Origin: Mesostigma viride
Lineage: Eukaryota > Streptophyta > Mesostigmatophyceae > Mesostigmatales > Mesostigmataceae
Reading direction: 5' to 3'
NCBI GenBank assembly: GCA_009746045.1
Contig: RPFO01000027.1
Span: 3,167,609 to 3,231,608 of the forward strand
Length of the DNA: 64,000 nt
In this document: piece by piece, positions 18,341-60,885 of the stretch
Layout: every line of letters begins with the position of its first letter
How positions within the stretch are numbered: the first letter of the stretch is position 1
The notes under the pieces: generated by a model
The model's database searches: none
What the model was told of the DNA's origin: nothing
Seen by the model: the letters and a program-made list of their open reading frames with translations, nothing else
Position numbers and translations under genes: made by a program

Positions 18341-18498
18341 CGTTTGCTCGTCATATATTGCGTAATAGCTTCGGAAAATTATATTAGCGTGTGCGTCTTA
18401 GAAAGACGAAGCGATTGACGGATGTTCACAGCCAAATTTGGTGCCCAAGTTTACGTGAAAGTTATGAGCTCCGCCGTCAGCCAAGGCTACCTCGTGGC
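18341..18498. other. Non-coding block partly copied at 22959-23040
   Basis: A roughly 85-bp stretch here (CTTCGGAAAATTATA ... GACGGATGTTCA ... CAGCCAA) recurs in diverged form at the junction between duplications A and B. Confidence 0.6.
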
Positions 18499-18601
18499 TC
18501 GTGGCTTAACACGCGATCCTACCGCCCGTCTATTCTATCTTTTAAAAAAAACTTGTACTCTATATCTATTGTGTCCTCGACCCTAGCCTGGGTCTAGTTG
18601 T

Positions 18602-21695: not shown

Positions 21696-22163
21696 TGTTT
21701 TAGCCGTGTTGGTCCGTACGGCAACTCGGGTATGAAAGTACGCCGTATTGTACGGTACCGATGCTTTCGACCGCGTACGCCGTACGATTTTCGCTGTTTT
21801 TCACTTTGGACTTAGCCGATTTCGGAGGTCGCGGAGGGCGGGGGGCAGGTGTCACGCGAGGCCCAGGAACCTGTCCGCGGTGCTGAGATAGCAGTAATTG
21901 CAGCGAGTGCATAGCTACTCCTTTGTACGCGTGGCAGTGCACCTTTTTCCTTTTTGACAGGATTTTTTATTGCGTGGGAGAAAAGCTGTAAGGGGACAGC
22001 CTGGCAGAATCATAAGGTTGAGACACGCGTGCAGTTCTAGAAGGACGCAATTATTAATGTAGAAGGACGCGGAAAATGGACGAGGAAAATGGACGAGGAA
22101 AATGGAGGGTGGTGCGACGGTTCATGCATTGTGCGCCAGGCAATCACCTACTAAGATGAAACC

Positions 22164-22598
22164 ATGGCGCTGCGTAGAGCCCCAAACGACAGAAAAGTAG
22201 AGGAGTATCAATACCTCCATCTGATTGACGAGGTGGAAAAGACCGTTCATGGGGAAGAGGTGGTAGTCGGCCAGAGGTGGGCGTGCAAGCTGTGCGATTA
22301 CAAGTTCGGTAGGCCTGGCAGCTTTAGCAAGGATCGCGCTGTCGACCATCTCGGCCACATCCCCAACAAGGGAGCCGCGTTTTGCAAGGAGTCCGGGAAT
22401 GTAGAAGGCCTGATCGGGAGGCTTCAGGCGGCTGAGGCAGCCCGGTTGGAAAGGAGAGAGCTGAGGCCAGCGCTCGGTGCCCGCGTTGCCAAGGCCCTTC
22501 TGCCTGCCGCTGCCCCGGGTGCTGGCCCTTGTGGCTCTGGCAAGGCAGTGCAGAAGACGATTCCACAGTGCTTTTCCAGGCATATCCTTGGCAGTTGA
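22164..22598 (+). CDS. BED-type zinc-finger protein of hAT element (copy A)
   Basis: 144 aa, identical to the copies in B and C. Residues C41, C44, H62 or H65, and C74 form the C-x2-C ... H ... C pattern of plant and algal hAT BED fingers (CKLCDYKF ... HLGHIPN ... C). No dimerisation domain or DDE catalytic core follows; the ORF stops after SRHILGS. It may act as a DNA-binding repressor or helper, or be a relic. A 24-bp palindrome follows directly. The host element is truncated here. Confidence 0.6.
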   Translation: MALRRAPNDRKVEEYQYLHLIDEVEKTVHGEEVVVGQRWACKLCDYKFGRPGSFSKDRAVDHLGHIPNKGAAFCKESGNVEGLIGRLQAAEAARLERRELRPALGARVAKALLPAAAPGAGPCGSGKAVQKTIPQCFSRHILGS

Positions 22599-22602
22599 CA
22601 GC

Positions 22603-22626
22603 GTTATCTGGGCATGCCCAGATAAC
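22603..22626. repeat. 24-bp perfect palindrome in hAT element
   Basis: GTTATCTGGGCA and its exact inverse abut. Copies are at 27202-27225 and 46296-46319. It lies just after the BED ORF, between two CCTTGGCAGTTGAC-like repeats. It may be a transcript-terminating hairpin or a protein-binding site. Confidence 0.7.
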
Positions 22627-22958
22627 TGCAGTTTGCCATATACTTTTTCTCAGGAATGCCCTGGCAGTTGACGGTGTGTTTTCTGGGCTACTTTTCGACC
22701 TTTTTTTTACTGACTAGGTTGTCCCCAGTTTACAAATTAACAAAATTAACAAATTAACGCCGGCGGACTACCTGCGGACTGCTCTACGTGGAGTCTCCGG
22801 GCTACAAGTTGCGTACTTGACCAAACTCAGCCGTAGAGGCCGCCGCACCAATTTTTACTTCTTTTCGTCACATGGCTTGCGTTGGGTTCATCGACGAGCA
22901 TCGACGCTCATCGACGGTGCAATCTGACGGCGGAGAATAAGTTCGCCACAGCACAGCG

Positions 22959-23103
22959 TAACGCTTCGGAAAATTATACAGCGTGACATGCTTAGAAAGA
23001 CGAAGCGCTGACGGATGTTCAACAGCCAAGTTTGGTCGCCCACCTCTGCCTCTTAACCGTCGAATGCGCAATCGATCTAGAAAGTAGAAACGTCTCCGCG
23101 ACA
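22959..23103. other. Patchwork junction between duplications A and B
   Basis: The first 82 bases resemble 18358-18448, upstream of copy A. The next 63 are identical to the hAT interior at 27662-27726. Copy B then starts. Two distant templates in 145 bases point to template switching. Confidence 0.7.
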
Positions 23104-23204
23104 CTCGTGGCTTAACACGCGATCCTACCGCCCGTCTATTCTATCTTTTAAAAAAACTTGCACTCTATATCTATTGTGTCCTCGACCCTAGCCTGGGTCT
23201 AGTT

Positions 23205-23725
23205 GTCTAGCGGGTGCTGTAACACCGGGCCCCCGCTTGGGGCGGGTCTCCACCGCCCTCGCCTCGGGATGAGCTTGTGCCGGCAGGTCCTGGCGTGCTC
23301 CTCGCTCTCGGACCGCGACTGGGAGATGTGGGAGCACCCCGCTCGGACCTTGCCCCCGCCATGGAGCTCGTCGTACTCGAGGTAGTTCCTGCACACGTAC
23401 TCGAAGCTGCGCTTGCAGACGCGGGCATGTTCGTCCTTGCCTCCCATGTCTCGTGCGTCTCGTCGCACAAGTCGCACGCCATGATGTTCGTGTGGCTGAA
23501 CACGAGGCCAGACATCACCCCATCCCGCGTGTACCACTTGCCGTCGACCAGGCGGAGCAGCGGCTTGTGGCAGATCGGACAATTAGTATGCTTTTTCTGC
23601 AGCATGCATAGTGTCGGCGCACCCGTTGCACAACAAGGGACGGCACGCGTGACCGCCGCCGATCTGGAACAGCACGGGGTACTTGTCCTTCTCGCTGCTG
23701 AAGGCCTCGGAGCACACCACGCAGC
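23205..23725 (-). pseudogene. RING plus zinc-finger protein, frameshifted (copy B)
   Basis: Same reading as copy A: CCVVC ... GHACRPLLCNGC, frame change, NCPICHKPLL, CDLCDETHETWE, frame change, HARVCKRSFEYVC. The 3' border differs from A (TGTAACACCGGGCCCCC replaces the G-run). The shared lesions mean the break predates the duplication. Confidence 0.5.
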
Positions 23726-24479
23726 ACACCCTCGGGCCGCTGCGATGCCCCGCCGAGCCTTGGACAGCTCCGGCGGCGCTCGTCTTCGCCAGCTTGCGCC
23801 GCCAGAGGGAGCTCAGCTGATCCTCCGTCTCGTGGGCGGTGTGCGGGCAGCTGCCACTCGCACGAGCAGCCCACCGCGGAGGGTGTGTGCAACGGCTCCC
23901 GCTTGCGCTTCTTGTGGTTGTGGCGTCCGAGAGTGCCGCTCACAAACACGCTCGAGACTCCCAGCGACGGGCGGGAGGGGCCGGGCGCGGTGCCTCGCAG
24001 CAGACCTGCGACAGAAAGGCGCGGAACACCACGAGGGAACACTGTCAGACGAAGAAAAACAGCGGAGGGCCGGGGGCAACAAGCGAAAAAAGCGGGCGAA
24101 AAAAAAGGACACACTGGGAGCCGGAGCTCGGCGGCGGCACGAGCTGGAGCTGGAGCGGGGGCGGGGCGGCAGGGAGCACGCCCAACATGAACGCGGTGTC
24201 GGCGGGGCGCGTCACCACGTCCTCGTCGTCTTCCACGTCGATGTATGCGAAGGAAAATCATAGGGCGACGAAAAACGCGAAAAAGTTTTGTCAGACGACG
24301 AAAAAACGCGAAAAAAACTCGTCGGGCGACGAAAAAACGCGAAAAAACTCGTCTGGCGACGAAAACTCACGTGCGTTGTCGACGTTGGGAGGCGTGTGCT
24401 GGTTGTAATGATCGTTGTTGTGGTACGCGTAATCGTCGCGAGCGTGAACGCTGTCGGTCGGCTGGTCGTTGTTGGCCAT
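23726..24479 (-). pseudogene. Putative 5' part of the RING gene (copy B)
   Basis: ATG at 24479, with GTGAGT donor near 24371 and the same acidic block and repeat array as in copy A. It differs by one G near 24160. Tentative for the same reasons as copy A. Confidence 0.3.
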
Positions 24480-26294
24480 CGCTAACAAGTTGCTGGTGGG
24501 GACAGAGTTTGGGTGTTTTAGACAGCGCTGAAGGATTGTAACAGTATTTTCTGACAGTGTGTATACTGTTACATCCAAGTGGACGTGAACTTGGAGTTCA
24601 ACGTTCAGTGTAAATGGCTGAGTCTTTTGTACGGCCAAAGTGTAATGATTCCTGTCCTGACTTGACTTTTTGGGACTTATATGCGGAGTGCCCTTTTGAT
24701 GGTGCTTTGTGTTGGGCCCTGGACGGTACGGGACAGTACCTTGGAATCTATGTGTTATCTGACTGATGTCAGTTAGTATCTTTCGTAAGTTAGGGGTGTA
24801 AAGCATATATAGAGAGAACCTTATACCGGTTCATCTGTGTTCTGATTGGCTGAGACCTGTAGGATTGCGTTGGACTCCTCTGTGTCGGCGGGGACATAAG
24901 CTTTGCCTGTTTGTCACCATAGCCATCACGCGGAAACCCGGCCCAATTATGTGAAGTTATTTCTAATAACCAAACATGCTCACTTCAGGCCCTGTTATTG
25001 GACAGCCATATCCGATAGACAGGAAGTCTTGTGTCTGTATGAACAAGCAGAGAGACGCCCGACCAAAAGGGGACCACCGCTCTCTATCGCGTAAGTACCG
25101 TCTCGTAGGAATGGCCTCTAGACGGGAAACGACCACCCTCTACGATTCCTGGAGAGTGCTAGGAATCTCCCCTGTCTCTTGGGGTTTGATAAGTCCGTTC
25201 TGTCTTCAATGACAGGAGGTAAAAGATCTGTGCATTTAGTGGAGCAGAGGCCACCATTTTATTCTGTTACATTGGTAATCGGAGGTTTGACCTCTGAACA
25301 GACTTATCAAAGCATGGGACGAGTTTCCGTTTACTGACTCTTTCAGTATACATCAACCATTTCCGCCTACCAACGTTTTTCCTACCGAGGGAAGAACAAG
25401 AACGATAGCATTCGTCCTGGTTGACACATTTAGAAGAAAGCTTTCTACTAGCTCAGCGGCCAGTCACCTGGCAGTTTCACTAAGCCTGCTGAACTGTATA
25501 GAGTGCATTCTTCACTGGGCAGCGAATTTATTTTTGTAGTCTGTGTTGCGGAGTAGGCTATGCGTCTGGCATGGGACGTTCTCACGAACAAGCCGAGCCA
25601 GAGCACATTTTCCAGAGCCCAAGCTAACGCACCAGACCAGCCAACTCAAGTGATTCTGCTGCTGTCGCCTATTCGACACTGCGTCAATCTGCCCTACCCG
25701 CTGAAACGGCAACGAGCTCTACACGACAACAACAATCAGCCGACACAGTGTGCAGACTGTGGTGGCAACGAGTTCTCCCAGTCATGCCAATGCCTTCTTT
25801 TTCAACGACTACATCTGCCACTTTTAGTGACAACATCTTCATGTTTCGGCAACAACCTTTCGCTCTAGCGCCGACGTTTTGCCGTAGCAGCGACATCTGG
25901 TTGTGGCGACAGCGTCGTCTGCTGCAACGGCATCTGCTAGGCCAACATCTCGAAAAGCAGGTGGGCACCTGGTGATCTCTTTTGGTTGCAGAATTAGAGA
26001 TGCCTAGGGGATGAGACATTTTCTTACTGCTCACCACCATGATGCTAGAGTGGAGAAGACCCAGTCCTGTAAGCAGTTTGGAGGAAGGTCTTTTCCCTGT
26101 TCTAGTCATGGCTTGTAAAAAGGGTGACAGTCCCATGTCTCTCAAGGTGTGCTGTCATACTGCGGACACCTTAAAGGTGTTGTGCCTAACACCTGCGTGC
26201 CTAGTTATTAGGGAGTGCTGGCTTCTTCCCCCATAGGTTGGGAGGAGAACAACCTAGTTGTTCCCATCATTACATTATTCCATGCCTGTGATGC
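24480..26294. other. Uncharacterised block of the duplicated segment (copy B)
   Basis: Equivalent of 19881-21695. No supported gene. The 127-bp inverted repeat lies at 25185-25311. Confidence 0.5.
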
Positions 26295-26762
26295 TGTTTT
26301 AGCCGTGTTGGTCCGTACGGCAACTCGGGTATGAAAGTACGCCGTATTGTACGGTACCGATGCTTTCGACCGCGTACGCCGTACGATTTTCGCTGTTTTT
26401 CACTTTGGACTTAGCCGATTTCGGAGGTCGCGGAGGGCGGGGGGCAGGTGTCACGCGAGGCCCAGGAACCTGTCCGCGGTGCTGAGATAGCAGTAATTGC
26501 AGCGAGTGCATAGCTACTCCTTTGTACGCGTGGCAGTGCACCTTTTTCCTTTTTGACAGGATTTTTTATTGCGTGGGAGAAAAGCTGTAAGGGGACAGCC
26601 TGGCAGAATCATAAGGTTGAGACACGCGTGCAGTTCTAGAAGGACGCAATTATTAATGTAGAAGGACGCGGAAAATGGACGAGGAAAATGGACGAGGAAA
26701 ATGGAGGGTGGTGCGACGGTTCATGCATTGTGCGCCAGGCAATCACCTACTAAGATGAAACC

Positions 26763-27197
26763 ATGGCGCTGCGTAGAGCCCCAAACGACAGAAAAGTAGA
26801 GGAGTATCAATACCTCCATCTGATTGACGAGGTGGAAAAGACCGTTCATGGGGAAGAGGTGGTAGTCGGCCAGAGGTGGGCGTGCAAGCTGTGCGATTAC
26901 AAGTTCGGTAGGCCTGGCAGCTTTAGCAAGGATCGCGCTGTCGACCATCTCGGCCACATCCCCAACAAGGGAGCCGCGTTTTGCAAGGAGTCCGGGAATG
27001 TAGAAGGCCTGATCGGGAGGCTTCAGGCGGCTGAGGCAGCCCGGTTGGAAAGGAGAGAGCTGAGGCCAGCGCTCGGTGCCCGCGTTGCCAAGGCCCTTCT
27101 GCCTGCCGCTGCCCCGGGTGCTGGCCCTTGTGGCTCTGGCAAGGCAGTGCAGAAGACGATTCCACAGTGCTTTTCCAGGCATATCCTTGGCAGTTGA
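26763..27197 (+). CDS. BED-type zinc-finger protein of hAT element (copy B)
   Basis: 144 aa. ATG at 26763 after ACTAAGATGAAACC. The BED-like finger is C41-x2-C44, H62/H65, C74. The C-terminal half is Ala/Arg-rich (LQAAEAARLERRELRPAL) and could be helical. Real hAT transposases are 600-800 aa; the dimerisation and catalytic regions are absent, and about 1.7 kb of non-coding sequence follows within the element. It is the only plausible product of this element. Confidence 0.65.
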   Translation: MALRRAPNDRKVEEYQYLHLIDEVEKTVHGEEVVVGQRWACKLCDYKFGRPGSFSKDRAVDHLGHIPNKGAAFCKESGNVEGLIGRLQAAEAARLERRELRPALGARVAKALLPAAAPGAGPCGSGKAVQKTIPQCFSRHILGS

Positions 27198-27583
27198 CAG
27201 CGTTATCTGGGCATGCCCAGATAACTGCAGTTTGCCATATACTTTTTCTCAGGAATGCCCTGGCAGTTGACGGTGTGTTTTCTGGGCTACTTTTCGACCT
27301 TTTTTTTACTGACTAGGTTGTCCCCAGTTTACAAATTAACAAAATTAACAAATTAACGCCGGCGGACTACCTGCGGACTGCTCTACGTGGAGTCTCCGGG
27401 CTACAAGTTGCGTACTTGACCAAACTCAGCCGTAGAGGCCGCCGCACCAATTTTTACTTCTTTTCGTCACATGGCTTGCGTTGGGTTCATCGACGAGCAT
27501 CGACGCTCATCGACGGTGCAATCTGACGGCGGAGAATAAGTTCGCCACAGCACAGCGCGACGCAAGGGCTAAGATCCGACAAC

Positions 27584-28170
27584 GTGACATGCAAAGCTTT
27601 AGACCGCATCGCTAACCGGAAATTCCGTCCAACACCGTCGTACAGTACTGCCAGTCGACCGCACCTCTGCCTCTTAACCGTCGAATGCGCAATCGATCTA
27701 GAAAGTAGAAACGTCTCCGCGACACTTCCGCGATTTCAGTACATGCCGTCACCCTTGACAGTTGTCGTACAATACTGCAAATTTACGCCAATAGAAACTC
27801 GCCTGCAAACATATATCTCGATAGAGGCATGCGTCTTATTTAATTTCAAGGTACCTCTTAATTAATCTCGCCCTCCCGTTGTAACACCGTCCCCCCGTTG
27901 TAACACCGTCCCCCCCCCCCATAAATGCGTCCCCCCCCCGTTGTAACACCGTCCCCCCCACGTACAGTACTTTCAACCGCAGCTCTGCCTTTTAACCGTC
28001 GAATGCGCAATCGATCTAGAAAGTATCCGCGATTTCAGTACATGCCGTCACCCTTGACAGTTGTCGTACAATACTACAAATTAACGCCAATAGAAACTCG
28101 CCTCCAAACATATATCTCGATAGAGGCATGCGTCTTATTTAATTTCAAGGTACCTCTTAATTAATCTCGC
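27584..28170. repeat. Internal duplication and C-run block inside hAT element
   Basis: About 140 bases at 27727-27870 (CGATTTCAGTACATGCCGTC to CTTAATTAATCTCGCC) recur at 28030-28170. They are separated by CCGTTGTAACACCGTCCCCC repeats. The matching ORFs at 27584 and 27925 reflect this repeat. It is also present in copy C at 46678-47264. Confidence 0.85.
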
Positions 28171-28917
28171 CCCCCGGCCTCCGCTAATTTGCTAATTTGC
28201 TAAATTTGCTAAAAAAGAGCCAATTTTACCCCGACTACTTGCCACTTCGTATTTACTTTTTCGGGCATTTCCTTGGCAGTTTATTGTGTGGTTCATTCTG
28301 CATGGGTTGATTGCCATTTTATTTTTAAGGGATTCATGGCATGCACATGTTGTCATTGTGCAGCAAAGCTGCCGACTGTAGTGCTATCACATCCACTGCA
28401 TCAACTATATATAGGCAGAGATCTGGGTGCATTATACCATGTTCAATCATGCATTATATTGAGTTGATGGCATTCATGCAAATTTTGTAAAGGCTGATGC
28501 ATTATAATAAAAGGGTATTATAATAAAAGAGACCGGTGTTAAATGGTCAATAATTTGCATGACCACAATATACACATGTACTTGAAGGATGTATTGCAAT
28601 GTAAATCCAAGTGTGGCAGGTGGCAAGTCACAACCACTTTATGTTCATTAATGAATAGCATAGGATAATTATATCGTAGTAACATTTGTTGGCTGCAGGG
28701 TCACACATCCTTGTCCAGAATACCCCGTACTTTTCAGCATTCGCCTAAAAAATACCCCGTACTTCTTAACCACAACTTGAAAAATACCCGTACTGCCGTA
28801 CTGCGTATTTTTTCCCGTATTTTTTACCACTCCTCCTGAAAATACCCGTACTTTTGCAGTACACGCGGGTTTTACCGAATACCCCGTACTGCCGTACGGA
28901 CCAACACGGTGTTTTAG

Positions 28918-31421
28918 CATTGCTGTGTGAGTCTGAGCTTTTAGCACTCACCATAGGCTTGCGTGGAGTAAATGTTTTGATTGGTGCCTGTCACTGCCCT
29001 CTAGTAGTGTATCTGGTACATTTTAGGGTCTCACCCACCGTAAAAATTTTCTGGGAGGGTGTGGATCTGACCAGACACCTTGTGCATGGTTCTGGCACGT
29101 ACCAGCACACAGCCAGATAGTACTAGAAAGGCTATCCATTCCAGGATGGTTTTGATAGTCAGTAGTTTATTTAGAATACAACCCGGACTTGGGTCAGCCA
29201 GCATTCAATGTTATTTCTTGGTGCAGGCTGAAACTTGTACCCTGTCCTGGGTAGTCACAGGCACTTGTATTATCTATGGATGGTGTGCTCTATTGCATCT
29301 ATGGCTTGGCTTGCCTCTGTAGATGTGATAGAGTACTGCACTCTAGATAGTATGATGTGCACCTCTTCAGTTGCATAGACATCTTGCAGCTGTAGGTAGC
29401 TACTGCGGTGCATCTTTTGAGTGCATGCTTCTGAAGTGCCTCGGCTTGGGCGCATCTCTGCAATGTTCTCTGGTCTTGCACACATATGAGGTGCCTTGAT
29501 TGCGTGAACTAGCTATTTTGTTCACTGCTGAGAACATTGTAATGGGCAGTGTCAAGTCTTTCCTTTTCTTCTTTTTTTAGTAGAAAGGATGCTTGTTCAC
29601 TGGGTCCCATAAGGAGTATGGTCATCAAGTTCGCTGCATAGGACGTACTTTACGCCTGCCCTTGATGACTCAGCTAGGTTGGCAATAGTGCCTTTTAGCA
29701 ATCCGCTGTAGTCATAGTTTTACAGCTGGCTTGTCCTAGACACGTGGGCTGTTACGTGTTGTCACCACATGTCTTGGTCAAGACCTGCTGCTTAGGGGAG
29801 CCACTAACACTGCCTGTCACCTGATTTAGGCCATACAGTATTATATAGCATTATAGGCCACCTGTTGGGAGAAACAGTTTGTTTGTCTCCTGACCCTGCC
29901 AAGGTTGCCTGTACTGTTTAGTTCTAGTTTTAGGTCGCCTGTTGGGAGACGCCAGCTTTGTTTGTCTCCTAACCCTGCCAAGGCTGCCGGTATTTTCTGT
30001 ACCAGTTTTGGGCTGCCTGTTGGGAGAAAATAGTTTGTTTCTCTCCTAACCCTGCCAAGGCTGCCTGTAGATTCCAAGTGCCTAACTCTTACGTCAGTCA
30101 CTCAGGTTTACATCTTTCTTGTGGCCATTGGGATGGTGCAGACGTTGTGCTTATCATGGATGACGTCTATACAGTTGCCCCTGGTTGCCTTATTATGGCA
30201 AGATGTACAGTTGGTTGATAGATGCGTGACAGTTGTTTTTCAGTCATGAAAGCAGTCACTAGCATCTGTCCCAGTGTTGGATATATTACCAGAATCCCCA
30301 CGAGGTTTTGGTTGTTTGCAGTCTTATAAGAGCTTGCCTGAGGGTAAATGATGTGCCAGTACGCCATGGCTGAGTTTTACTTATTTTGCTTTTTCCTCAG
30401 TGACCTGGACTTCAATCAGTTGGGCTTTCTCTGCATGTCAGCCTTTCTTGTCAGCTGTCTGCTGACTACTGATGAAGTTCATATGGTCAGAAACAGTGGG
30501 AGTCATACTTCTCATGTGATTCCCTGTTTTCAAGCTCTCTCTCTCTCCGCGTGCAGTCTGTGACTCCAGTGCACCAGCTATACAGACTGTGTGCATACCT
30601 AGAGTACTCATCTTCTTCAGTTCTCACCGTTATGAGAGCTTTGAGTATTCGCACGGCCTATGGAGTGGCCTAATGGTGTGCATCTTTTGGAGCAGTGGAC
30701 ATCATGAACAGAGTTGCTAGGGTGTGTCAAGGACGTTTTGTGGCTATCATAACAGGGATGCAGACGAGCATTTATTAAGTGTGGAGTTTACCGGTGGCTT
30801 TTGTTGCTCTTGAACTCCGCACTGCTTGTCAATTGCTTGCCTTTGTCATTGATCCTTGTCACTGTCCTGTTGACCCCCTTCTGATCTTTCCTTGCTTGCT
30901 AATCCTTGTCTTGGGAAGATCTCACCTCTCACCTCTGTTCATTTCTTTGTCTATCTTGCTGCCTCCCATGAGTGGACTTTGTGGTATCCTCTCATGTCTG
31001 TCTGAGAGCCTCTCTCTGATAGAGTTTTAATTGGGTACAACAGTATGCTGGCATCTGTACCCTGAGTGCCTACTCACTCACCTTCAGTTGTACATGATGC
31101 AAGGGGTCTTGCTACAGCTCTTGAGTATTTCTCTATGCTGACGGACCCTTCCGCCCTTGAGCTGCCCACAATACAACAGCGTTCTGGATCAATGGACAAT
31201 TTTTGTACCTAGGATGGGTTGTGATACTGTTGCTGAGGAGCTGTGAGCTCTCTTTGTGTTGACCTCGTCAGCTTTACCCGCTGCTTGACATCAATCTGCA
31301 ACCTTTATATGGCTGTCAAGGATTAATCCATGTTGTGTGGTCTCACAGGAACATCTTATGGAGGGAGCCTGTCTGACCTTGTTGTCTTGTGGGTTTGAGA
31401 TGCCCTCACCCCTACACCTTG
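28918..31421. other. Non-coding flank between hAT and gypsy elements
   Basis: I see no supported gene. It contains one tandem repeat array (29861-30070). The whole stretch is duplicated at 48012-50502 with few differences, among them a 13-bp deletion in C near 49941. Confidence 0.5.
29861..30070. repeat. About 70-bp tandem repeat, three units
   Basis: Units contain CCTGTTGGGAGA, GTTTGTTTGTCTCCT and ACCCTGCCAAGG. Copy C has it at 48955-49164. Confidence 0.8.
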
Positions 31422-31426
31422 ACAGG

Positions 31427-31999
31427 TGTTACGTCGCGTAACAATTCGTTGTAGTTACGGACGTAAATTAGGTCTTTTGCCTCAGTTGTCCCTAGGTTTA
31501 CGTTTAGGCTCCTACCGGGACATTATTGTCTTCGTAACAGTACTGTGGTACATTGGGTGCCGTTGGGCGCCGCGCCGCGTACTTTACTAGTGGTCCTGAT
31601 CCTTTGGTAGAATGTAGTGGACCAGCGTGCATCAGTAGATGTAGTGGACCAGCGTGCATCTGTAGGCGAGGGCCATGTCGGCCCGAGCGTGTTGGACCGT
31701 TGGTGACCATTTATGCGTGTTCTACCCCTTGTGTGTGCACTCGGCGTGTGTTAAATGAATTAACACATATAGGCTTGGGTCACGGCAGTGTAGTTGTGTT
31801 TCCTTCCTCTTTTCCTGGAGTAAACGGGTTTTGGTAAATGGTTGTATGGCGTATTATAGTAACACTTACGTTAATGCATTGAGATCAGCTCCGTCACGTT
31901 CGTCTTTCGCCAGAGGTTTGAGTAGAGGAGGCCTGACCAGTATAGGTAGTATTAGGCCCATTAGAGGTAGAGGCGGAGGTAGATACCCGCGGCGTAACA
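31427..31999 (+). repeat. 5' LTR of gypsy element
   Basis: 573 bp, TG...CA. It starts with the palindrome TTACGTCGCGTAA and contains a 26-bp direct repeat (GTAGTGGACCAGCGTGCATC at about 31614 and 31640) in the likely U3 region. It includes the start of the Arg/Gly-rich ORF. Confidence 0.95.
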
Positions 32000-32205
32000 A
32001 TGGTTCCGGAGGAACTTCAGTAGGTAGAGAACAAGACGACGATCCCTTGCCACATACGCCTTTTCAAGACCCCTTCCGCGTCCAGGAATACGAAGCCGAC
32101 ACGTCCTTGATAGGTAATGGGCGGGTCGCCTTCAAGCTAGGAGAGTCGTGCTGCCCGTTTCGGGACACGCTCTACCTGGATGCTAGACCTGCTCGCAGCG
32201 GATAA
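31846..32205 (+). CDS. Arg/Gly-rich leader protein of gypsy element, starting inside the LTR
   Basis: 119 aa from the ATG at 31846. The first 51 codons lie in the LTR, and the frame crosses the primer-binding site. Residues about 15-55 are rich in SRG, RGG and RGRGGG motifs (SRGGLTSIGS, RPIRGRGGGRYPRR), typical of nucleic-acid-binding RGG regions. The C-terminal half is acidic (EQDDDPLPHTPFQDP). The frame is identical in the C copy at 50927-51286. No homologue is recognised. If the transcript starts upstream of 31846, this would be the first ORF on the genomic RNA, and it could instead be non-coding leader. Confidence 0.5.
   Translation: MAYYSNTYVNALRSAPSRSSFARGLSRGGLTSIGSIRPIRGRGGGRYPRRNNGSGGTSVGREQDDDPLPHTPFQDPFRVQEYEADTSLIGNGRVAFKLGESCCPFRDTLYLDARPARSG
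32001..32016 (+). promoter_or_regulatory. Primer-binding site of gypsy element
   Basis: TGGTTCCGGAGGAACT starts one base after the 5' LTR. The leading TGG pairs with a tRNA CCA end. The tRNA is not identified. Confidence 0.65.
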
Positions 32206-32503
32206 ACCCTTTCGTAGTTAGCCTGTCCTTCGCCTTGTTTTCCTGCTTACGGTTGTTTCCTGTCATAGATAGGGAAGTATTACTGTCCGGAGACGATTAG
32301 CGTCGCAGTACCTACACCTTTTCCTTCGTGTTGCTGCTCATTAGACGGCCGCACTCGCAGAAATTCACTGGGTCGCTGACTTTAGGACTACGAGCGCTGG
32401 ACCGTTTTCGCCCTCGTCATTTCGGTGATCCAGATACCCCAGCTAAGTCGACTCCTACCCCTTCCACTCCTATCGTGACTACTCAAGAACAAGGTGCGTT
32501 ACC

Positions 32504-32896
32504 ATGAGCCAGCGGCGATCTTTTACTGCTCCTTCCCATTCATCTAGTGATAATAGCTTAGCTAAATATTACGTAGTTATTACCCCTCAATGGTCAGCCA
32601 TTTTCCTCTCTTGGTCAGATGCTAGGAAGATAGTGCAAAACCGTACATATAATGTAATTAGGTATAAGAAATTTGTTACCTTCGAGGAAGCTCAACAATT
32701 CCTTATAGACCATAGTGTATCAGATCTAGGCCTACACGTACGTTCTACTCCTCATGGTCGCCCTCCTGTAGAAGCTCTAGATTTTGCTACCCCTCCTTCG
32801 TCTCCCCCTAAGAGGGCTGCATCCTCATCTAGCTTAGATACTCCTCTCACCTTAGAATTCGGTTCCCTATCCATTACTGTTGTTAAAAAGGATTGA
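32504..32896 (+). CDS. RNase H1 N-terminal / viroplasmin-type hybrid-binding-domain protein
   Basis: 130 aa, own ATG, own stop, 125 nt before gag. Residues about 21-70 fit the small domain found at the N-terminus of eukaryotic RNase H1 and in the caulimovirus inclusion-body protein. Features are KYYVV, then a Trp (FLSWSDARKIV) and the ending YKKFVTFEEAQQFL, where the domain's conserved K-x-F-x(4)-E-A-x(2)-F-L signature is clear. The family binds RNA:DNA hybrids or dsRNA; in caulimoviruses the protein supports reinitiation on polycistronic RNA. The rest is Ser/Pro-rich. It is identical in copy C. The function in this element is inferred. Confidence 0.7.
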   Translation: MSQRRSFTAPSHSSSDNSLAKYYVVITPQWSAIFLSWSDARKIVQNRTYNVIRYKKFVTFEEAQQFLIDHSVSDLGLHVRSTPHGRPPVEALDFATPPSSPPKRAASSSSLDTPLTLEFGSLSITVVKKD

Positions 32897-33020
32897 GTTA
32901 AATAGTTTCCTTCGTTTAAGCCATTAAAAGCTTTTTCTTTTCCTTCCTTGCCTTAAATTAGGCCTTGTCCATTATCTTTGTTGCTTTCAGTTAGATTTCT
33001 AATCATTTATTTAATTAAAA

Positions 33021-34751
33021 ATGGATCCAGTGGGTGGTAACATGTCGCCTATACCTACCAATACTCCTACTATGAATAATATAATAATAATAATAATAAC
33101 AACCATAACAACAATCGTGGTAACCGACGGGACTCACTTGAAACGGTGCACCATCTCACTCCTCAAGGTAATCTTCGTACCTCACCTCCTTCTCCTGTTG
33201 CTGGTGGTCGCCGTCGTCCCTCACTTACCCCTCCTACCTATGAACAACGTATGCAAGTCAGATTTAGTGATGACCCTTCCCTTACCTTGAACCAGGCCCC
33301 TGCCCCTCCTGCAACCTTGGCTCAACCCCCAGCAGGTCCTCACTAACTAACAATGTTCTAGGCCTCCTTCCCACCCTGTGCCTTCCATGCCTGCTTTAAC
33401 ACGGGTCGTGCCTCTGCCCCTGTCGGCCCTTCTGGGCGCCCTAGTGCAGTTCCCTTTTACCCACCTGCTTCCTGGTCCTACCCTGAGACGGCCTATGAGG
33501 CAGCCCAGGTCCCTACCCGTGTGGCTGATTTAGAAGTTAACAGTGATTTCAGCACCATGCCCCTAGATGATAGAAATTATGATCATTTTGCCTACTCCTC
33601 TCTTCGTGAGCAATATACTGTCCCCTTTCTTATGGGCACCAGCCTGAAACGGTGGCCCCTTCTAGACCCCTACCCAAGACTTTTCCTCTTCCTTCCTTCT
33701 ATCCCGCTTATGTAGCAGTGGAAGATAGTGGCCCTATGGGAAAAACTGACTCTTCTAATCCCCCTAAGCCTCCTGCTCTTCCCCTCTTTGCTAACCTTCC
33801 CAAGCTGGATGTCAAGTCTACCCCTCAACAGTTTTTCACCTTTATTATGTTGCTTACCCAGAACACAGAGTCGTGGCAGAATCATAATAGATGGCGTCTC
33901 TCTGATGCTGTGTTAGTTCCTCATTATCTTACAACCTGCATTACTCCTGAGCTTGCTAACCTCATTCAGTGTGAGTCTTTGGCCTCTCATGCCTACCCTA
34001 ACTCTGTAGCAGAATTGTTTAAGCGTTTAGAGAACCATTTAGTCCCTCCTGATTCAGATTGGCAGGATAGATTAGCCTTTGGTACCTTGCAGCAGGGTAC
34101 TAAATCATTTAAGGAGTATATGAAAGAGTTTGATGCTCAGATGGTACGAATTAGGGATTTGTCGGGTGCAGAAGTACGTGCTCGCTTCCTCCAAGGCCTC
34201 AGTAGACCCTTATTACGTGAAGTCAAGCGCCAGTTCTCTGCCTACCGTTTTACTGATCTGCCCCTCAAGCATGTGCGCCAGCATCTCTTGCGTGTAGCAG
34301 ATTTCTTCACCACCCCTTCTCTTCCTACCCGTTCCCGTATTAATAATATTATCCTTACCCCTGAGGAGGAGAACTCCTATGTAGAAGAATTAGATATCTG
34401 TGTTACTGACCTTTCAGCCCTTGATGTCTCTCATATCACATGCTATCATTGTAAGGAAGTAGGTCATCTTAAACGTGAGTGCCCCAAGTTCCTTTCGGGT
34501 GCTCCCCCTCATCCCGACGCTCGCCCTCCTCGTACCCCTCAGCGTGCTCCTATTCGTCCTACTTCAGGACGCATTCCCTCAGCTACCCCTAGTAGGCTGA
34601 ATGCTGTGCAGCAGGATCCCCAGGGTTCCCCTATGATAATCAGGCTCCCGCACCCTCTTCGCTCCCTCGTGACCCTCCAGCAGTGGCTTTTTCGCCAGGG
34701 TCTTCTTCGGGGTTAGTTCCTATGGATTTGGGGGGGGAGGGGGAACAGTAG
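33021..34751 (+). pseudogene. Gypsy gag (capsid plus CCHC zinc knuckle), frameshifted
   Basis: Starts ATGGATCCAGTGGG. The capsid-like core runs from about 33780 (LPLFANLPKLDVKSTPQQFF) to LLRVADFF at about 34305. The zinc knuckle CYHCKEVGHLKREC is at 34441-34482. Compared with copy C, single-base changes break the frame near 33085, 33350, 33628 (CCCCTTTC for CCCCTTTTC) and 34610. The capsid part is intact in one frame from 33652. Gag forms the virus-like particle and its knuckle binds genomic RNA. Confidence 0.8.
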
Positions 34752-37700
34752 GCCTGTCAGCCGGGGGTAACCTGGACAGGTCCTTAGATAGTACCCCAGA
34801 TAAAATTTTTGCCTGCCTGTTTTTATAACCTCTGTAGGAGCTGAATCTTCCCTACCACTACGTGTGCGTCCTCTTATGTTCTTGAATGGTGGTTTAACCG
34901 TCCCTCACACTGTTGTAGACCCTTTCCTGCATGCTGATGAACTCTTGAATGTCTCTGTGTTGGTAGATAGCGGTGCGGCTAGCTCCTTTGTGAGCGAGGC
35001 CCTAGTTAGGCGTTTAGGACTAGTCCCTACCCCTCACACCAAACCCGTCACTGTTCATTATGCTGATGGTCGCACCAGTCATTCCCCGGGTACGGTGTCC
35101 CTTCCCATGGTTATACAAGGACGTACTGTCAACCTGACGGCCACTATAGGCCCTATCACTACCGCTGATGTATTACTAGGATTAGATTGGCACCAGGATA
35201 ATAAGATTACTATTAATTATGATACCATGGTCATTGGTTTCCAGATAGCTCTTACTGGGTACCGGAACGTCATTATAGATTGGAAAATTTATCCTTGGTA
35301 GATATTACTCCTCCTACACCTGTTGATCCTCCTGTGAGACCTATACCTGAAGTATTAATGTCCAATGATGAGTTGCGTTCTGAACTAAAGGAATATGGAT
35401 ATTTATTATGTATGTTCCTTCAGTTAGAAGTACAGGAGATACCTATCACTAATAATAGTGTGGATATAGATATAAACACAGTGGATACAATAGGAGTGGG
35501 ATTTACTGAAAATGAAATAGTAAGATACATGGCTGTGATAGATTCCTCAAAAGTTTTTGAAGAAAAGACTCCTTCTTATCCTCCTCCTCGTTCTGTTTTA
35601 CACCGTGTAGTTATCAAGGACGGTGCAGTTCCTACGCACTCTCCGATGTATAGAATGGGCCCTACCGAGTTAAAGGAACTAAAACAGATTTTAGTGTCAT
35701 TATTAGAAGCAGGATTGATAGAGCCTAGTAACTCCCCTACTCAGCTGGTGTCCTGTTAGTTCCTAAGCCAAATGGCAAGTTTCGCCTAGTTACTGATTAT
35801 AGGAAGTTGAATGATATTACTGTGAAGTCTAAATACCCTCTACCTCGTATTGATGATATATTTAATAAGGTTAAAGGTTCCACTTGTTTCACAGTACTGG
35901 ATTGTGCGGATGGTTTTTGGCAGTTGCGGATAGCTCCTGAGGATTGCCATAAAACCGCCTTTGCTACCCCTTTTGGTCATTACCAGTTTAGAGTAGCGGC
36001 TATGGGACTCTGTAACTCGCCTGCCTCTTTTCAAATGTTAATGAATGAAGTGCTTAGACCTGTTATGGGAAATTCTCACCTTCCTCAGGTGTCCTCTGAT
36101 CTAAAGGATCCTTCCTTCTCCTCTGTTTCTTTATCTGAGCATGACCGTTCTTGTGCTCAAGCTTACTTAGATGATATTCTTATTTACTCTCCTGATTTTG
36201 AAACGCACCTACGTGATTTAAAGAAAGTATTAGAAATAATGGCTGAAAATTCTTTGTGGGCGCGCCGTGCTAAAGTTCGTTCGGGTAGGAGTGTCCCATT
36301 TTTAGGGCACGTTCTGTCAGATGCCGGGGTCGCTACCGACCCGGATAAAACTAAGTCAATTCAGGAATGGCCTACCCCTACCGACGTTAAAGGTGTACGT
36401 AGTTTTCTAGGAATTGCTTCTTACTATAGGCGTTTTATCCCGCGTTTCGCAACTATAGCAGCCCCTATTAATCATTTATTAAAGAAGGATATCCCCTTTG
36501 TTTGGAGTAGTGAATGTCAGTCGGCTTTTCAGTGCCTAAAATCCCTACTCCTTTCCCCTCCTGTACTCATCCTACCGGATACTACTAAACCCTTTGTTGT
36601 GGCTACAGATGCTAGTAAGGTAGCTATAGGTGGCGTCCTTCTCCAGGATCAGGGTCAGGGCTTACAGCCAATTGAGTATATCTCTAGGACAATGCTCCCT
36701 GCGGAGCGTAACTATCCCGTACACCAGCAGGAACTCTTAGCTGTGGTGTATTGTTGCCACGCGTGGCAGCACTTTCTTAAAGGTGCTCAATTTGATGTCT
36801 GCCTGAATGAACCCTGTGAGCTAGATCCTTATAGATTAGTTATCCAAACGGATCACCGTCCCCTTACCCATCTTCTCTCCCAACCCAACCTTACCCCTCG
36901 GCAAGCGCGCTGGATGGAATTTTTAGCACAGTTTTCCCCTTTTAAACTTCAGTATGTCAAGGGTGTAGATAACATAGTACCAGATGCACTCTCTCGTCGT
37001 GCAGACTACTCCTTTTTCGAGGACCTTGATGTTCTCAATACTACTCTAGTTCCTACTACTATGGGTGTAACCCCTTATGGTGAACTACCTGATGATGAAT
37101 CCTATGCCTACCTCTTTCATACAGCTGTTCGCATGCCTGATCTCCTTTCTCACGTAGGACTCTCTCTCCCGTGTGAGGCCCTTCCCGTGGCCTCGGTGGG
37201 GGGGAGGGGAAAAATAAAATTTCTATACCGCTTAGCCATATAGCGACTAGGTCAGGAAAGTCTTATGAAAACGTAGTCCCTCTAGGACCTCCCCTTCTCT
37301 TTGGCAAGGCGGTAGGAGATCTCTTTAAACCTGTTCTGGATACCTCTGTAGCGATGCCTACCTCTGATCTTGAACGCCTTATTAGTAGATTTACGGCCAC
37401 TGAGCCGGAAGCATTAGCTGCCATTGCTGCACATCCCCAACAATTAGGCAAGCACCCTTGTAAATTTGTAGGTGGGTTTTTATATGTGCAGATAGCAGAT
37501 TCTCCCCCTCAATGGCGCCTGTATGTCCCTCCTATCTGTCGCTCCTCCTTGCTCTTTGAGTTGCATGACTTAGCTGCTCATCAGGGTGGTAAACGGGTAC
37601 GGGACCTAGTAGCCCGCTCTTATTACTGGCCTTCCCTTTATAAGGATGTAGATGAGTATGTTAGAACTTGTCAATCTTGCCAGGAGATGAAACCCAATAA

Positions 37701-38825
37701 TGTAGGACAGATAGCAGAACCTAGGACCTTGCCTGACCCCATCATGCCGTGGGATTCTATCATGATGGATTTTGTAGGACCTTTTAGAAAGAATGATAGA
37801 GGCAATGCCCAAATCCTTGTGTTCATAGATCGTTTTACTCGTATGTGCCATCTTGTGCCGTGTCCTTTAGAACTCACCGCACGTGATTGCGCACGCCTAT
37901 ACCTCAATAATGTATATAGATATCATGGTTTGAGTAGGCAGTTTATTAGTGATAAGGATAAGTTATTTACCTCAGATTTTTGGCAGCAGTTTTTCGCTGC
38001 CATCGGTACCAAGGTTACCTACGGTACTGCCTACCACTCCTCCTCCTCTCATTTAGTAGAGCGTCTTAATAGGGTAGTAGAAGAAGCGCTTAGGCACTAT
38101 GTTAATGGCTCGGGTAGTGATTGGGAGGATTATTTATGTTTGGTAGAGTTCTCCCTCAACAATTGTCCCCAAGCTGCGCATGGATATACGCCCTTCTTCT
38201 TAGATACTGGTAGACAGCCTCTTACCCCTACCTCTCTCTTAGCTAGTCCTCTACGGGACAAGGATGATGTGTCCCGAGATACTGTAGAAGGTGTACAGTC
38301 CTTACTAGATAGAATGAAAACTGCTCATGACCACGCGATCTCAGGGTACCAAAAAGCTCAGGCTAAGTACCTTGCTAGGTTGCGTGCCTCCTTAGATAGA
38401 AGAGCACCTGAGATAGAAATAGGAGATCTAGTATTAGTAGAAGGCCCCCGTGTTGGCCGTTTTGCTCATAAGTTTGAAGCAGAACTAAGGTCAAACTTAG
38501 GCCCGCCTTCTTAGGACCCTTCCGTGTTTGTCTAGAGTAGGAAATTTCTATATAAAGTCGATATCCCTACCTCTTGGCAGACACATTCAAACACCTTCCA
38601 TAGGAGCCAGCTAAACTGTACCACCCTAGTACGTTCGCTGGTAGAGAGTTAGCGCCTGCCCCTTTAGAGCATAACCCTGACACTGGGGAAGTAGAAGACG
38701 AAGTAGAAAGCATCGTGGCCCATAGAGATATCAAAAAGGGCCGCGGTACCCAGCGTCAGTACAAAGTGAAGTGGATGTATGCTCGTAGTGAAGTAGATAA
38801 GGTCTGGTATACGGAAGTGAGCTAG
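34740..38825 (+). pseudogene. Gypsy pol: protease, RT, RNase H, integrase, chromodomain; frameshifted
   Basis: Domains in order are as follows. Aspartic protease: DSGAAS (34966) and LLGLDW (about 35180). RT: FTVLDCADGFWQ (about 35890) and YLDDILIY (36165-36188). RNase H: TDAS (about 36608), E in QQELLAV, and TDHRPL. Integrase: H-x4-H (37564), CQSC (37672), DDE residues in MMDFVG, ISDKDK and LVERLNR. A GPF-type segment follows (about 38505-38640), and a chromodomain-like end reads VESIVAHRD ... QYKVKWMY before TAG at 38823. Frameshifts relative to copy C lie at about 35235 and 35738. Others are inferred near 37200 and at about 38515-38620. Chromodomains steer integration to modified chromatin. 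Confidence 0.85.
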
Positions 38826-38950
38826 ATGGGTGTAGTCGCCTGCTGCAGGAATATAAAACCCTGCACAAGCTCTAGTTGTAGACCTTCTCCTCTCTTATGT
38901 TATGTCTGCTGTCGACGGGTGGTTGGTTGTCCCCCCCCTCCGCAGCCGTC

Positions 38951-39427
38951 ATGTCAGAGCCTACCCCTCCGGCTGAGAGCTCGCTGCCGTCCCCGCCCCT
39001 ACCGGACCCTGAGCTGTATTTCGAGGCCCTTCCGGGCCGCTGGGTGTCGCGATCAAGTTACCCGGGTGGCGTTGTGCAGCCGGCCCTTCAGGCCCAACAT
39101 GCGGGCTTAGTCAGGGCGGCCCTCTTCGGGGTCACGTGGTATGGTCCTTCCCCTGATGAGCCGCACCAGCTTGTCCTGCACGGGTTCGACGATGCCGGAC
39201 ACTGTTTGTTGGGGTGTGGTTCCAGCTGTCCCGCCTTGGGACAGATAGATGCGGTTCTCCGGTGCTGCCGTGTGTTCTCCTACCTCTCTACCCCTGTGGG
39301 CCGTACCTGCCTACGGGAGGTGTTCCCTTGGCTTCCGGCTGAGGGTGATGCTGAGGTAGATGAGAACCCCTGCGACCTTTTACGGGCCGTAGAATTCATG
39401 GAGATAGCTGATCAGTCGGCGGACTAG
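38951..39427 (+). CDS. Accessory ORF 1 in env position of gypsy element
   Basis: 158 aa from the ATG at 38951, 125 nt after the pol stop. It begins with a Pro/Ser/Glu stretch (MSEPTPPAESSLPSPPLP), followed by a globular-looking part with six Cys, including CLLGCGSSC and RCCRVF. No signal peptide or membrane segment is visible, so it is not an obvious envelope. GC content and codon use differ sharply from the AT-richer pol. No family is recognised. It could be a captured host exon or an element-specific protein. Confidence 0.5.
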   Translation: MSEPTPPAESSLPSPPLPDPELYFEALPGRWVSRSSYPGGVVQPALQAQHAGLVRAALFGVTWYGPSPDEPHQLVLHGFDDAGHCLLGCGSSCPALGQIDAVLRCCRVFSYLSTPVGRTCLREVFPWLPAEGDAEVDENPCDLLRAVEFMEIADQSAD

Positions 39428-41258
39428 CGGTTAGTGGTCCTGCCCCTTCGGGCGCCCCAGCCGAGGTACATTATACTCCAGATTATTCTGCCTCGAGCGC
39501 TGCGTCCGCCTCCTCGGCGTCTGTTCCTCCCTCTCCGGTCCCGTCGTCCCCTCGGTCGACCCGGGTGTTGCAGTAGAGCCTACCCCTTCGGGTTTGCCTG
39601 ATCCTCTTTCGGCGACGGTCTCGGCTATGCAGGCTCAGATCCAGTCCCTGACCACGGCGTTCGGGGCCTTCCTGGCGGCCCAAGCGCAGACTCCGGCCAC
39701 GCCAGGTGGGGTGTCTGTGGTGTCCGCGCCCCCTACCCCTTTGGTTGCTTCGGCACCTGTGGTTTCGCCGGCGCCCCCTACCCCTTCGGTTGCTGCGGCT
39801 CCGACACCTCCGGTTGCCTCCGTGCCTGCGGCCGACGTTCCCGCGCCTCGGCGCGAGTCTTCAGCCCCTTCGGCTGTGCCCGCCGTCGCCCCTCTGGGCC
39901 GTCCGCTGCGCCCTCACAGCCAGTTCGTGGTTTCTTCAGCGACACGGGCGATCATCCCAGGCTTTGGGAGGGTGGTCCCCCGCAGAGGATCCCGGTGCCC
40001 GACTGGAGCTTGGATGGTAACCAATCTTATGCCGGGCTGCCTGTCCCTACGGGCCCTATCTTCAATATGTGGCCTGAGGGTGCACCGGCAACGGAGACCG
40101 GCGCGCCTGCGCGATGGCGGGTCCGTCACGGCCCTCTCTGGCTTCGGGTCCGGCGCGACCTCCTGTTTTACCAGTGCCCCCTGCGTCGGTGTCGGCTCCT
40201 GCCCCTGCGTCGGCCCCTGCTTCGGTCCCTGCTCCTTCGGCCTCGCGGTCATTGGCCGCGGTTGTTCGGTCCACCGGTCAGGATCCTCGCGTCACCCGCG
40301 CTGCCGATTCCCTCCGGGAGTTGTCCCAGGGTGATCGGGACAGGGCCCCTTCTGTGGTGCATGCGACGCCGGAGTCGCGCGACACGCCCATTCCTGGGTA
40401 TGGTATGTCCGCACTCGCCTGCCGACAGTGTGACCTGCCGCGCGCCTCTGCTGAGCTTGCCATCTCCCCATGTCCTACGGGTTCTCCCAGGTGTGTCGGG
40501 CGCCTCGGGATCGTGGCCTACCCATTGAGACTGATCGGCCTCCTTCGACATGGTTATTTTAGCTGATCCGGTGTTCGAGGGTGAGATCCTGGTCCGGCGC
40601 GTTCTGTATCGCTGGGCTAGGCGCCACAACGACTTGGACACCTACGGTGGGTTCCAGTGGGCTTACCCTCCGCCTCTGGGCATTATGGCTTCGGATGCCC
40701 TTACGGTAGAGTTTCCTGCGGTACGGGTGCTGCGTACAACACGGTCCTCCAGCCCATCCTCGAGTGGGATGCCCGTCGTCCGGCGCCCATCCCGGGCCAG
40801 GGTCTAGACTCCCGTGCCACCCTCCTCCTCGGGCCAGCGACTACCTGGAGACATTCGGGTCGCGCCAGTGTGCTCGTCGGTGGCGCTCCCGAGAGGTTCG
40901 GCACATCCGGATGTGGCCGTCCAACGTGGAGCCCCTGGTGGACCTGTTTTTCCCGACGGGTTTGCGCCCTCGGATCCGGTACCATCGCCTCCTCCTGCGG
41001 GCCCTCTGTTTGATCGCGGTAGAGCCTTTCCTTCGCCTCTTTGCCTGTGGCTTCCTGGACTGGGCCCGTGGCCAGGTCGTTCTTACGCAGCATAGGTATT
41101 ACTGGGCCTTTCTGGGCCTTTTTCCTGACGGTGTGTGGGCCGATGTTTTCCTCACTGTAGATAGGCATGACAATGTCGAGGATGTGGCCCACTACCAGGC
41201 CTACCTGGAGGTCCTGCTGGCCTCCGTGGTACCTATCAGACGGATGGCCACTAGATAG
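39428..41258 (+). pseudogene. Accessory region 2 of gypsy element, Pro/Ala/Ser-rich, frameshifted
   Basis: A run of overlapping frames together suggests one broken ORF. An Ala/Pro/Val-rich part (about 39430-39990) contains MQAQIQSLTTAFGAFLAAQ, a helical segment like those at retroelement gag N-termini. A second conserved-looking part ends at TAG 41256 and includes FFPTGLRPRIRYHRLLLRAL and QHRYYWAFLGLFPDGVWADV. The middle switches frame several times. No homologue is recognised. The truncated C copy lacks this region, so the frame cannot be cross-checked inside the window. Confidence 0.4.
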
Positions 41259-41609: not shown

Positions 41610-41621
41610 TGGGGGGGGAGG
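41610..41621 (+). promoter_or_regulatory. Polypurine tract of gypsy element
   Basis: GGGGGGGGAGG directly precedes the 3' LTR, the expected plus-strand primer position. The preceding 41259-41609 is non-coding. Confidence 0.8.
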
Positions 41622-42194
41622 TGTTACGTCGCGTAACAATTCGTTGTAGTTACGGACGTAAATTAGGTCTTTTGCCTCGGTTGTCCCTAGGTTTACGTTT
41701 AGGCTCCTACCGGGACATTATTGTCTTCGTAACAGTACTGTGGTACATTGGGTGCCTTTGGGCGCCGCGCCGCGTACTTTACTAGTGGTCCTGATCCTTT
41801 GGTAGAATGTAGTGGACCAGCGTGCATCAGTAGATGTAGTGGACCAGCGTGCATCTGTAGGCGAGGGCCATGTCGGCCCGAGCGTGTTGGACCGTTGGTG
41901 ACCATTTATGCGTGTTCTACCCCTTGTGTGTGCACTCGGCGTGTGTTAAATGAATTAACACATATAGGCTTGGGTCACGGCAGTGTAGTTGTGTTTCCTT
42001 CCTCTTTTCCTGGAGTAAACGGGTTTTGGTAAATGGTTGTATGGCGTATTATAGTAACACTTACGTTAATGCATTGAGATCAGCTCCGTCACGTTCGTCT
42101 TTCGCCAGAGGTTTGAGTAGAGGAGGCCTGACCAGTATAGGTAGTATTAGGCCCATTAGAGGTAGAGGCGGAGGTAGATACCCGCGGCGTAACA
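41622..42194 (+). repeat. 3' LTR of gypsy element
   Basis: 573 bp. It differs from the 5' LTR only in CCTCGGTTG (A in the 5' copy) and GTGCCTTTGGG (G in the 5' copy). It is followed by ACAGG. Confidence 0.95.
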
Positions 42195-42199
42195 ACAGG

Positions 42200-48003: not shown

Positions 48004-48011
48004 TGTTTTAG

Positions 48012-50502: not shown

Positions 50503-50507
50503 ACAGG

Positions 50508-51584: not shown

Positions 51585-51977
51585 ATGAGCCAGCGGCGAT
51601 CTTTTACTGCTCCTTCCCATTCATCTAGTGATAATAGCTTAGCTAAATATTACGTAGTTATTACCCCTCAATGGTCAGCCATTTTCCTCTCTTGGTCAGA
51701 TGCTAGGAAGATAGTGCAAAACCGTACATATAATGTAATTAGGTATAAGAAATTTGTTACCTTCGAGGAAGCTCAACAATTCCTTATAGACCATAGTGTA
51801 TCAGATCTAGGCCTACACGTACGTTCTACTCCTCATGGTCGCCCTCCTGTAGAAGCTCTAGATTTTGCTACCCCTCCTTCGTCTCCCCCTAAGAGGGCTG
51901 CATCCTCATCTAGCTTAGATACTCCTCTCACCTTAGAATTCGGTTCCCTATCCATTACTGTTGTTAAAAAGGATTGA
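51585..51977 (+). CDS. Hybrid-binding-domain protein, gypsy copy C
   Basis: Identical 130-aa frame to 32504-32896 with the RNase H1 N-terminal/viroplasmin-type domain at residues 21-70. It stays intact although gag of the first element has decayed; the duplication is too recent for that to prove selection. Confidence 0.7.
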   Translation: MSQRRSFTAPSHSSSDNSLAKYYVVITPQWSAIFLSWSDARKIVQNRTYNVIRYKKFVTFEEAQQFLIDHSVSDLGLHVRSTPHGRPPVEALDFATPPSSPPKRAASSSSLDTPLTLEFGSLSITVVKKD

Positions 51978-59178: not shown

Positions 59179-59246
59179 TATATACAATGGCTGCGACCAA
59201 CTTTGCAACAAGAAAACAGCAAACTCTCCACCTATCCTCCACCCCC

Positions 59247-60212: not shown

Positions 60213-60236
60213 ATCCGTCGACCAGACTGTAATACG

Positions 60237-60880: not shown

Positions 60881-60885
60881 CTTTT

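Follow-up and report, generated by a model that had tools for sequence, protein, structure and literature searches.

The 130-aa open reading frame (ORF) that precedes gag in a Ty3/gypsy element of Mesostigma viride is, as judged from sequence, a genuine and conserved accessory gene of that lineage. The predicted product is a short protein in which one RNase H1-type hybrid-binding domain (HBD) is combined with a conserved C-terminal peptide; it has no nuclease. We base this on conservation of the frame in many copies, on dN/dS in ten of ten subfamily pairs and on a second Ty3 family with the same arrangement. An abundant Ty3-type element with a separate HBD gene upstream of its capsid gene appears to be new within the literature searched.

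The host element and its HBD reading frame

The window, meaning the whole stretch of 64,000 nucleotides that was analysed, contains the host element, a 10.8-kb Ty3/gypsy retrotransposon with a 5-bp target duplication (Table 1). The hallmarks of Ty3/gypsy elements (Metaviridae) are all present: LTRs and target site duplication, a zinc knuckle in gag, and the order protease, reverse transcriptase (RT), RNase H, integrase. The 5′ and 3′ LTRs differ at 2 positions over a 577-bp repeat, and gag and pol carry several one-base deletions relative to the second copy in the window. The earlier note had described the HBD ORF as intact in both copies. The two ORFs are indeed identical, but the second copy was rejected as independent evidence, as it is part of a segmental duplication that covers the element together with its 5′ flank (24971-31423 paired with 44064-50504). 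Among 13 long pieces from other genomic places, eight match unbroken from the LTR to beyond window position 40990. Relatives of the RT did not exceed 46% identity among the 120 matches listed, the named ones including Closterium and Haematococcus, and a search of IMG/VR returned relatives of neither the HBD nor the RT alignment.

Table 1. Features of the element, in window positions. A and C are subfamilies; a slash marks a putative splice junction.
Feature	Position	Strand	Basis and remarks
5′ target site duplication ACAGG	31422..31426	.	sequence; 3′ copy at 42195-42199
5′ LTR, TGTTACG...CGTAACA, 573 bp	31427..31999	+	repeat comparison
ORF0 exon 1, RG-rich, starts in LTR	31846..32113	+	A-C dS 0.587, dN 0.214; open to 32205 if unspliced; splicing putative
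Putative intron 1, AG/GTAATG ... CCAG/AT, 320 nt, phase 1	32114..32433	+	predicted; donor motif in 57/59 rows, acceptor motif in 56/59
ORF0 exon 2 frame, peptide ends GALP-stop in window	32434..32507	+	TGA 32505-32507 overlaps HBD ATG
Putative intron 2, MAG/GTGMGT ... TTTCAG, 497 nt, holds HBD ORF	32494..32990	+	predicted; donor in 57/59 rows, acceptor-like in 56/59
HBD ORF	32504..32896	+	130 aa, own ATG and stop; PF01693 domain aa 21-66, then P/S-rich tail ending LTLEFGSLSITVVKKD
gag region (Retrotrans_gag, zf-CCHC)	33021..34716	+	Pfam; 1-nt deletions relative to copy 2 break frame
pol region: protease, RT, RNase H, integrase, in pieces	34876..38514	+	Pfam
Chromodomain-like segment	38604..38822	+	PF00385 21.8 bits, E 1.8e-4; below cut-off of 25.1
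Large ORF region downstream of pol	38826..41258	+	728 aa open in L011; without Pfam match
Polypurine tract GGGGGGGGAGG	41611..41621	+	sequence, directly before 3′ LTR
3′ LTR	41622..42194	+	begins TGTTACG, ends CGTAACA
HBD ORF in copy 2	51585..51977	+	identical to 32504-32896 ORF

Several further features of the window and the element were observed. The ORF after pol (L011:7716-9899, running to the end of the piece) occupies the position of env-like ORFs in plant elements. A candidate primer binding site, TGGTTCCGGAGGAAC (31999-32020), is unlike the usual complement of the 3′ end of initiator tRNA, and we take it to resemble the anticodon arm of tRNA-Arg. A minus-strand copia-type element (52715-60881, 645-bp repeats) is inserted in the gag of the second gypsy copy. 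A 4.6-kb tandem sequence occupies 18360-27726 and 44064-46820, and part of it recurs in the duplicated block at 97-98% identity. Among the named ones of 120 matches listed for the RRM gene of the window are green-plant relatives and some of Mortierella type.

The sequence confirms the ORF with its own start and stop as it had been proposed, and the RNase H1 N-terminal or viroplasmin-type domain attributed to it was borne out by both a profile search and the predicted fold. In the Pfam search, PF01693 was matched by residues 21-66 over the entire profile (1-44 of 44; 32.7 bits, E 8.6e-8, at a curated cut-off of 21 bits), as it was by the HBD ORFs of subfamilies C and E. PF01693 was the only Pfam match within the 130 aa, with no RNase H catalytic domain and no other hit. 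One detail had to be corrected: the spacing given as K-F-x(4)-EEA is K-F-x(3)-EEA in KFVTFEEAQQFL. When solved structures were searched by sequence alone, none was found at 0.001, the best being the human RNase H1 HBD (3bsu; E 0.023). A model of the isolated domain, its input aligned with four other copies, had a pLDDT of 90.2 and the predicted order strand-strand-helix-strand-helix (E5-9, E14-17, H20-28, E36-40, H43-53). In the Foldseek comparison of this model with the PDB, chains of 3bsu took ranks 1-3 (probability 1.00, 0.97 and 0.91; TM 0.61-0.62 by query; E 0.09-0.53), and neither the PDB nor the viral models gave a match at E <= 0.001. Seven of the top 13 viral models are caulimovirus TAV/ORF VI proteins; a phage RNase H1 and a Pithovirus RNase H are also among the 13. 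Second-best among the viral fold matches was a 61-aa protein of Aeropyrum pernix bacilliform virus 1 (BFVD D4QF69). The full-length model of 130 aa had a pLDDT of 41.4 and no HBD among its PDB matches.

Trp37 and Lys55-Lys56 align with the W and KK of the human HBD, where these residues presumably contact the hybrid. The Ty3 protein resembles RNase H1 (PF01693; 3bsu) in its full-length profile match, in the predicted order of three strands and two helices and in the retained Trp and Lys-Lys, but differs from it in being a free-standing retrotransposon ORF without an RNase H catalytic domain.

Conservation among copies and in a second Ty3 family

Searching the 440-Mb genome with the window ORF gave 1501 candidates, of which 150 were scored, a set picked by similarity to the HBD ORF; at least 150 are full length, stop-free and at least 98% identical. 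In 23 of 24 aligned rows from this set the frame is open to the stop, and L007 is one base short there. Most copies compared had been chosen by their HBD. A less biased sample consisted of 20 copies hand-picked from 123 places selected by gag; one of the 20 was also on the list of 150 ORFs. Thirteen of the 20 have one open frame over residues 1-130 (three of them with in-frame length changes), four are split by frameshifts and three showed no ORF in the 651 bases fetched. One of the last three (C280) has a PF01693 domain about 2 kb upstream, which makes an insertion likely. Random breakage in most copies, which the earlier note had named as evidence against its proposal, was not seen, and neither was the other outcome that it had named, the lack of a PF01693 match and of a predicted HBD fold.

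A search of the protein database gave one match, P0002, which is labelled Alexandrium andersonii in EukProt. This 73-aa sequence equals subfamily C exactly over its length. A genome search with P0002 gave 1213 candidates, of which 150 were scored. Since 28 of these 150 listed places match it at 100%, P0002 corresponds to subfamily C starting at an internal Met, and its species label may reflect contamination. Among 30 C-type loci that were cut out, 28 begin with MSQRR, one is frameshifted and one is shortened in its 5′ part.

Selection was assessed on five subfamilies, A (window), B (L008), C (L029), D (L074) and E (L072). The dN/dS over genomic copies, a measure already suggested in the earlier note, was 0.043-0.217 in all ten pairs, at dS of 0.115-0.784. 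Between A and C, 37.5 synonymous and 14.5 nonsynonymous differences were counted, an in-frame synonymous excess with p 1.6e-13, and the other two frames had no such excess (p 0.96 and 1). By codon position, the A-C differences are distributed 12/5/35. The p-distance of this pair is 0.133 in the ORF, compared with 0.617 in the leader (32345-32494) and 0.649 in the spacer. Subfamilies A, B and C share the same C-terminal LTLEFGSLSITVVKKD; in D one residue is added to it, and in E one is changed. A random open frame was rejected by the dN/dS across subfamilies together with the synonymous excess confined to the ORF frame.

We also searched the genome for PF01693. Of 1764 candidates 150 were scored, and they comprise 17 places at 38-78 bits and 133 places at 34.6-37.3 bits. 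Three of the lower-scoring places were fetched, and all belong to the family of the window element. Six of the 17 higher-scoring places were fetched, on C1413 (twice), C2022, C1513, C1579 and C446. On C1513, two HBDs lie in an open frame of 208 aa (78.5 bits). A gag-domain open frame (PF03732, 33.0 bits) starts about 190 nt further on, and the next frame has a zinc knuckle (30.3 bits). The C446 place matches that on C1513 at 98.4% identity over 1979 columns; its HBDs are open, its ORF tail is shifted and gag lies downstream. The gag of this family is 33% identical to the window gag over 178 aa (E 5e-31). Its first HBD is 28% identical to the window HBD, and LGLHVR comes next in both. A second, diverged family with the same arrangement, as read over the HBD ORF and gag region, supports an old association of HBD and gag in the lineage. 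Visual inspection of the 2 kb beyond the C1579 place revealed no gag. L079 (C1413:498200-499000) is an open frame of 229 aa that has two canonical HBDs of the RNase H1 type (142 bits).

The leader and the route to gag

An RG-rich ORF had been described ahead of the HBD ORF, and it does exist (31846-32205), but it starts inside the 5′ LTR and probably forms the first exon of a spliced leader ORF (ORF0) whose stop overlaps the HBD start. As one continuous gene the RG ORF is weakened, because it is often broken while exon 1 and the downstream frame are kept: it stops after codon 100/101 in nine of 24 rows, is frameshifted in three and missing in one. In the window, 320 very divergent nucleotides lie between a donor-like AG/GTAATGGGC, which is in the RG frame, and an acceptor-like pyrimidine-CAG at 32433. 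Both sites are in phase 1, and taking out the segment between them would bring a short peptide, roughly KSPxPxSxxLTxQDxPGALP, back into frame. The motif counts in Table 1 refer to 59 rows from 56 distinct places, three of which are present twice, with acceptor patterns written after the subfamilies had been seen. Exon 1 has a dN/dS of about 0.36 between A and C, and the short exon 2 gave no clear constraint (dN/dS 0.4 to above 1).

For the second putative intron, the strict donor MAGGTRMGT occurs once on the plus strand of the element, compared with 0.24 expected from 50 first-order random sequences. This donor overlaps the PGALP codons and the start context, so that coding could explain its conservation. 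Subfamily C is without the TTTCAG acceptor (30 of 41 rows), and other pyrimidine-AG sites are present there. In 15 of 16 rows the upstream frame terminates at the start of the HBD ORF; in L024 it is shifted, and in L075 and L084 it continues into the HBD ORF in frame. The HBD ORF begins with ATGA in 69 of 69 rows because its second residue is Ser (AGY). The gag ATG lies at 33021, 124 nt past the HBD stop, and the stretch from the HBD stop to gag is ATG-free in 57 of the 58 rows in which a gag start was found. A direct link of HBD and gag by frameshift is not supported, since gag has its own ATG after this ATG-free spacer. As splice-like signals flank the HBD ORF, gag may be made from spliced RNA.

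Possible roles of the HBD protein and comparison with known systems

The HBD of cellular RNase H1 grips RNA:DNA hybrids, the intermediate of reverse transcription. We favour a similar role for the Ty3 protein, which would be a nucleic-acid-binding cofactor for hybrids or dsRNA in reverse transcription. The whole model combines an accessory HBD gene, a spliced leader ORF0, an intron-2 switch to gag and a duplex-binding cofactor of reverse transcription, and we put its probability at roughly 0.55. Genomic RNA that retains intron 2 would present the spliced leader ORF0 and then the HBD ORF, with the overlapping stop and start ATGA. Removal of intron 2 would eliminate the HBD ORF and make gag the next ORF. 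The HBD protein would bind RNA:DNA hybrids or duplex RNA arising in reverse transcription and, once bound, could aid RT/RNase H or protect the intermediate, the domain being supplied in trans to the element's own RNase H. No Pfam HBD match was seen beside that RNase H, and an HBD attached to the RNase H of an LTR element is not known to us. Retention under selection of a separate HBD protein by a high-copy Ty3 lineage suggests that selection can act on the binding of hybrids or duplexes in trans as one step of retrotransposition. According to the available part of PMC7657459, the HBD of RNase H1 binds hybrids and, weakly, dsRNA.

Binding to dsRNA or hybrids could also shield the element from host RNA interference, and the abundance of the family, with at least 150 full-length ORFs among 1501 candidates, would suit such a silencing suppressor. 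The RNase H-like motif of CaMV binds dsRNA as well as hybrids; however, the same excerpt (PMC5902531) describes the dsRNA-binding region of TAV as dispensable for silencing suppression, and we regard this role as unlikely.

A TAV-like reinitiation helper, with which ribosomes would read ORF0, HBD and gag from one polycistronic RNA, seems slightly less probable still. The upstream frame that terminates at the HBD start codon, the ATG-free spacer before gag and the seven TAV/ORF VI proteins among the best viral fold matches are in line with it, and the TOR-binding part of CaMV TAV contains an HBD-type motif (PMC5902531, in part). On the other hand, the ATGA follows from the Ser codon, and the upstream frame is shifted in one copy and runs into the HBD ORF in two others. 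Gag could be reached more simply through the splice-like sites that flank the HBD ORF, and TAV-like activators are not known outside Caulimoviridae as far as the same excerpt goes (PMC5902531). Both proteins are retroelement-encoded with one HBD, but this domain is all that they have in common: the Ty3 protein has no further Pfam domain and measures 130 aa against up to 531 aa for TAV among the rows of the viral fold search, its ORF precedes gag, and its element has LTRs and an integrase. It is doubtful that ORF0, HBD and gag are translated by termination-reinitiation at ATGA with the HBD protein promoting it, as a TAV-like system outside Caulimoviridae. If such a system did exist, the inclusion-body protein of caulimoviruses could be descended from the HBD, which would then be an ancestral helper of LTR retroelements. 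With the Ty3 HBD, the caulimovirus domain has a relative outside Caulimoviridae that can be used to test the origin and the job of the domain.

It is very improbable that the ORF is a captured fragment of host RNase H1 without present use. Seventeen genomic PF01693 places outscore the window family, and some may be host genes, but the Ty3 HBD is only 28 and 29% identical to two further genomic HBD proteins with which it was compared, purifying selection is strong across subfamilies and the HBD-gag arrangement recurs in the second Ty3 family. Bases conserved for an RNA or DNA function such as splicing or packaging, as the flanking splice-like motifs might suggest, can practically be dismissed given the codon-position pattern and the synonymous excess in the ORF frame only.

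With Ty3/gypsy elements, and chromoviruses in particular, the window element shares LTRs, target site duplication, gag, the order of pol domains and a chromodomain-like end, the last below the PF00385 cut-off. Unlike them, it adds a spliced-looking ORF0, the HBD ORF upstream of gag and a large ORF after pol. The literature search, which covered parts of the sources, found no HBD or PF01693 ORF in any LTR element. Within these sources, the earlier claim that gypsy elements have no comparable free-standing 5′ ORF holds for the HBD, but not for extra ORFs in general: plant LTR elements have them up- or downstream of gag-pol (PMC7264820), and an accessory ORF lies upstream in a Burro-like element of a planarian (PMC6431247). 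Such elements (PMC7264820, PMC9289625, PMC6431247) are similar in having an extra conserved ORF, sometimes upstream of gag; they differ in that no HBD or PF01693 ORF is named in the available portions. A mobile element carrying a PF01693 domain is described in the accessible part of PMC4289320, in the Helitron gene capE of Pleurotus ostreatus; in contrast to the Ty3 HBD gene, a conserved retrotransposon part, capE is captured cargo of one long copy of a DNA transposon.
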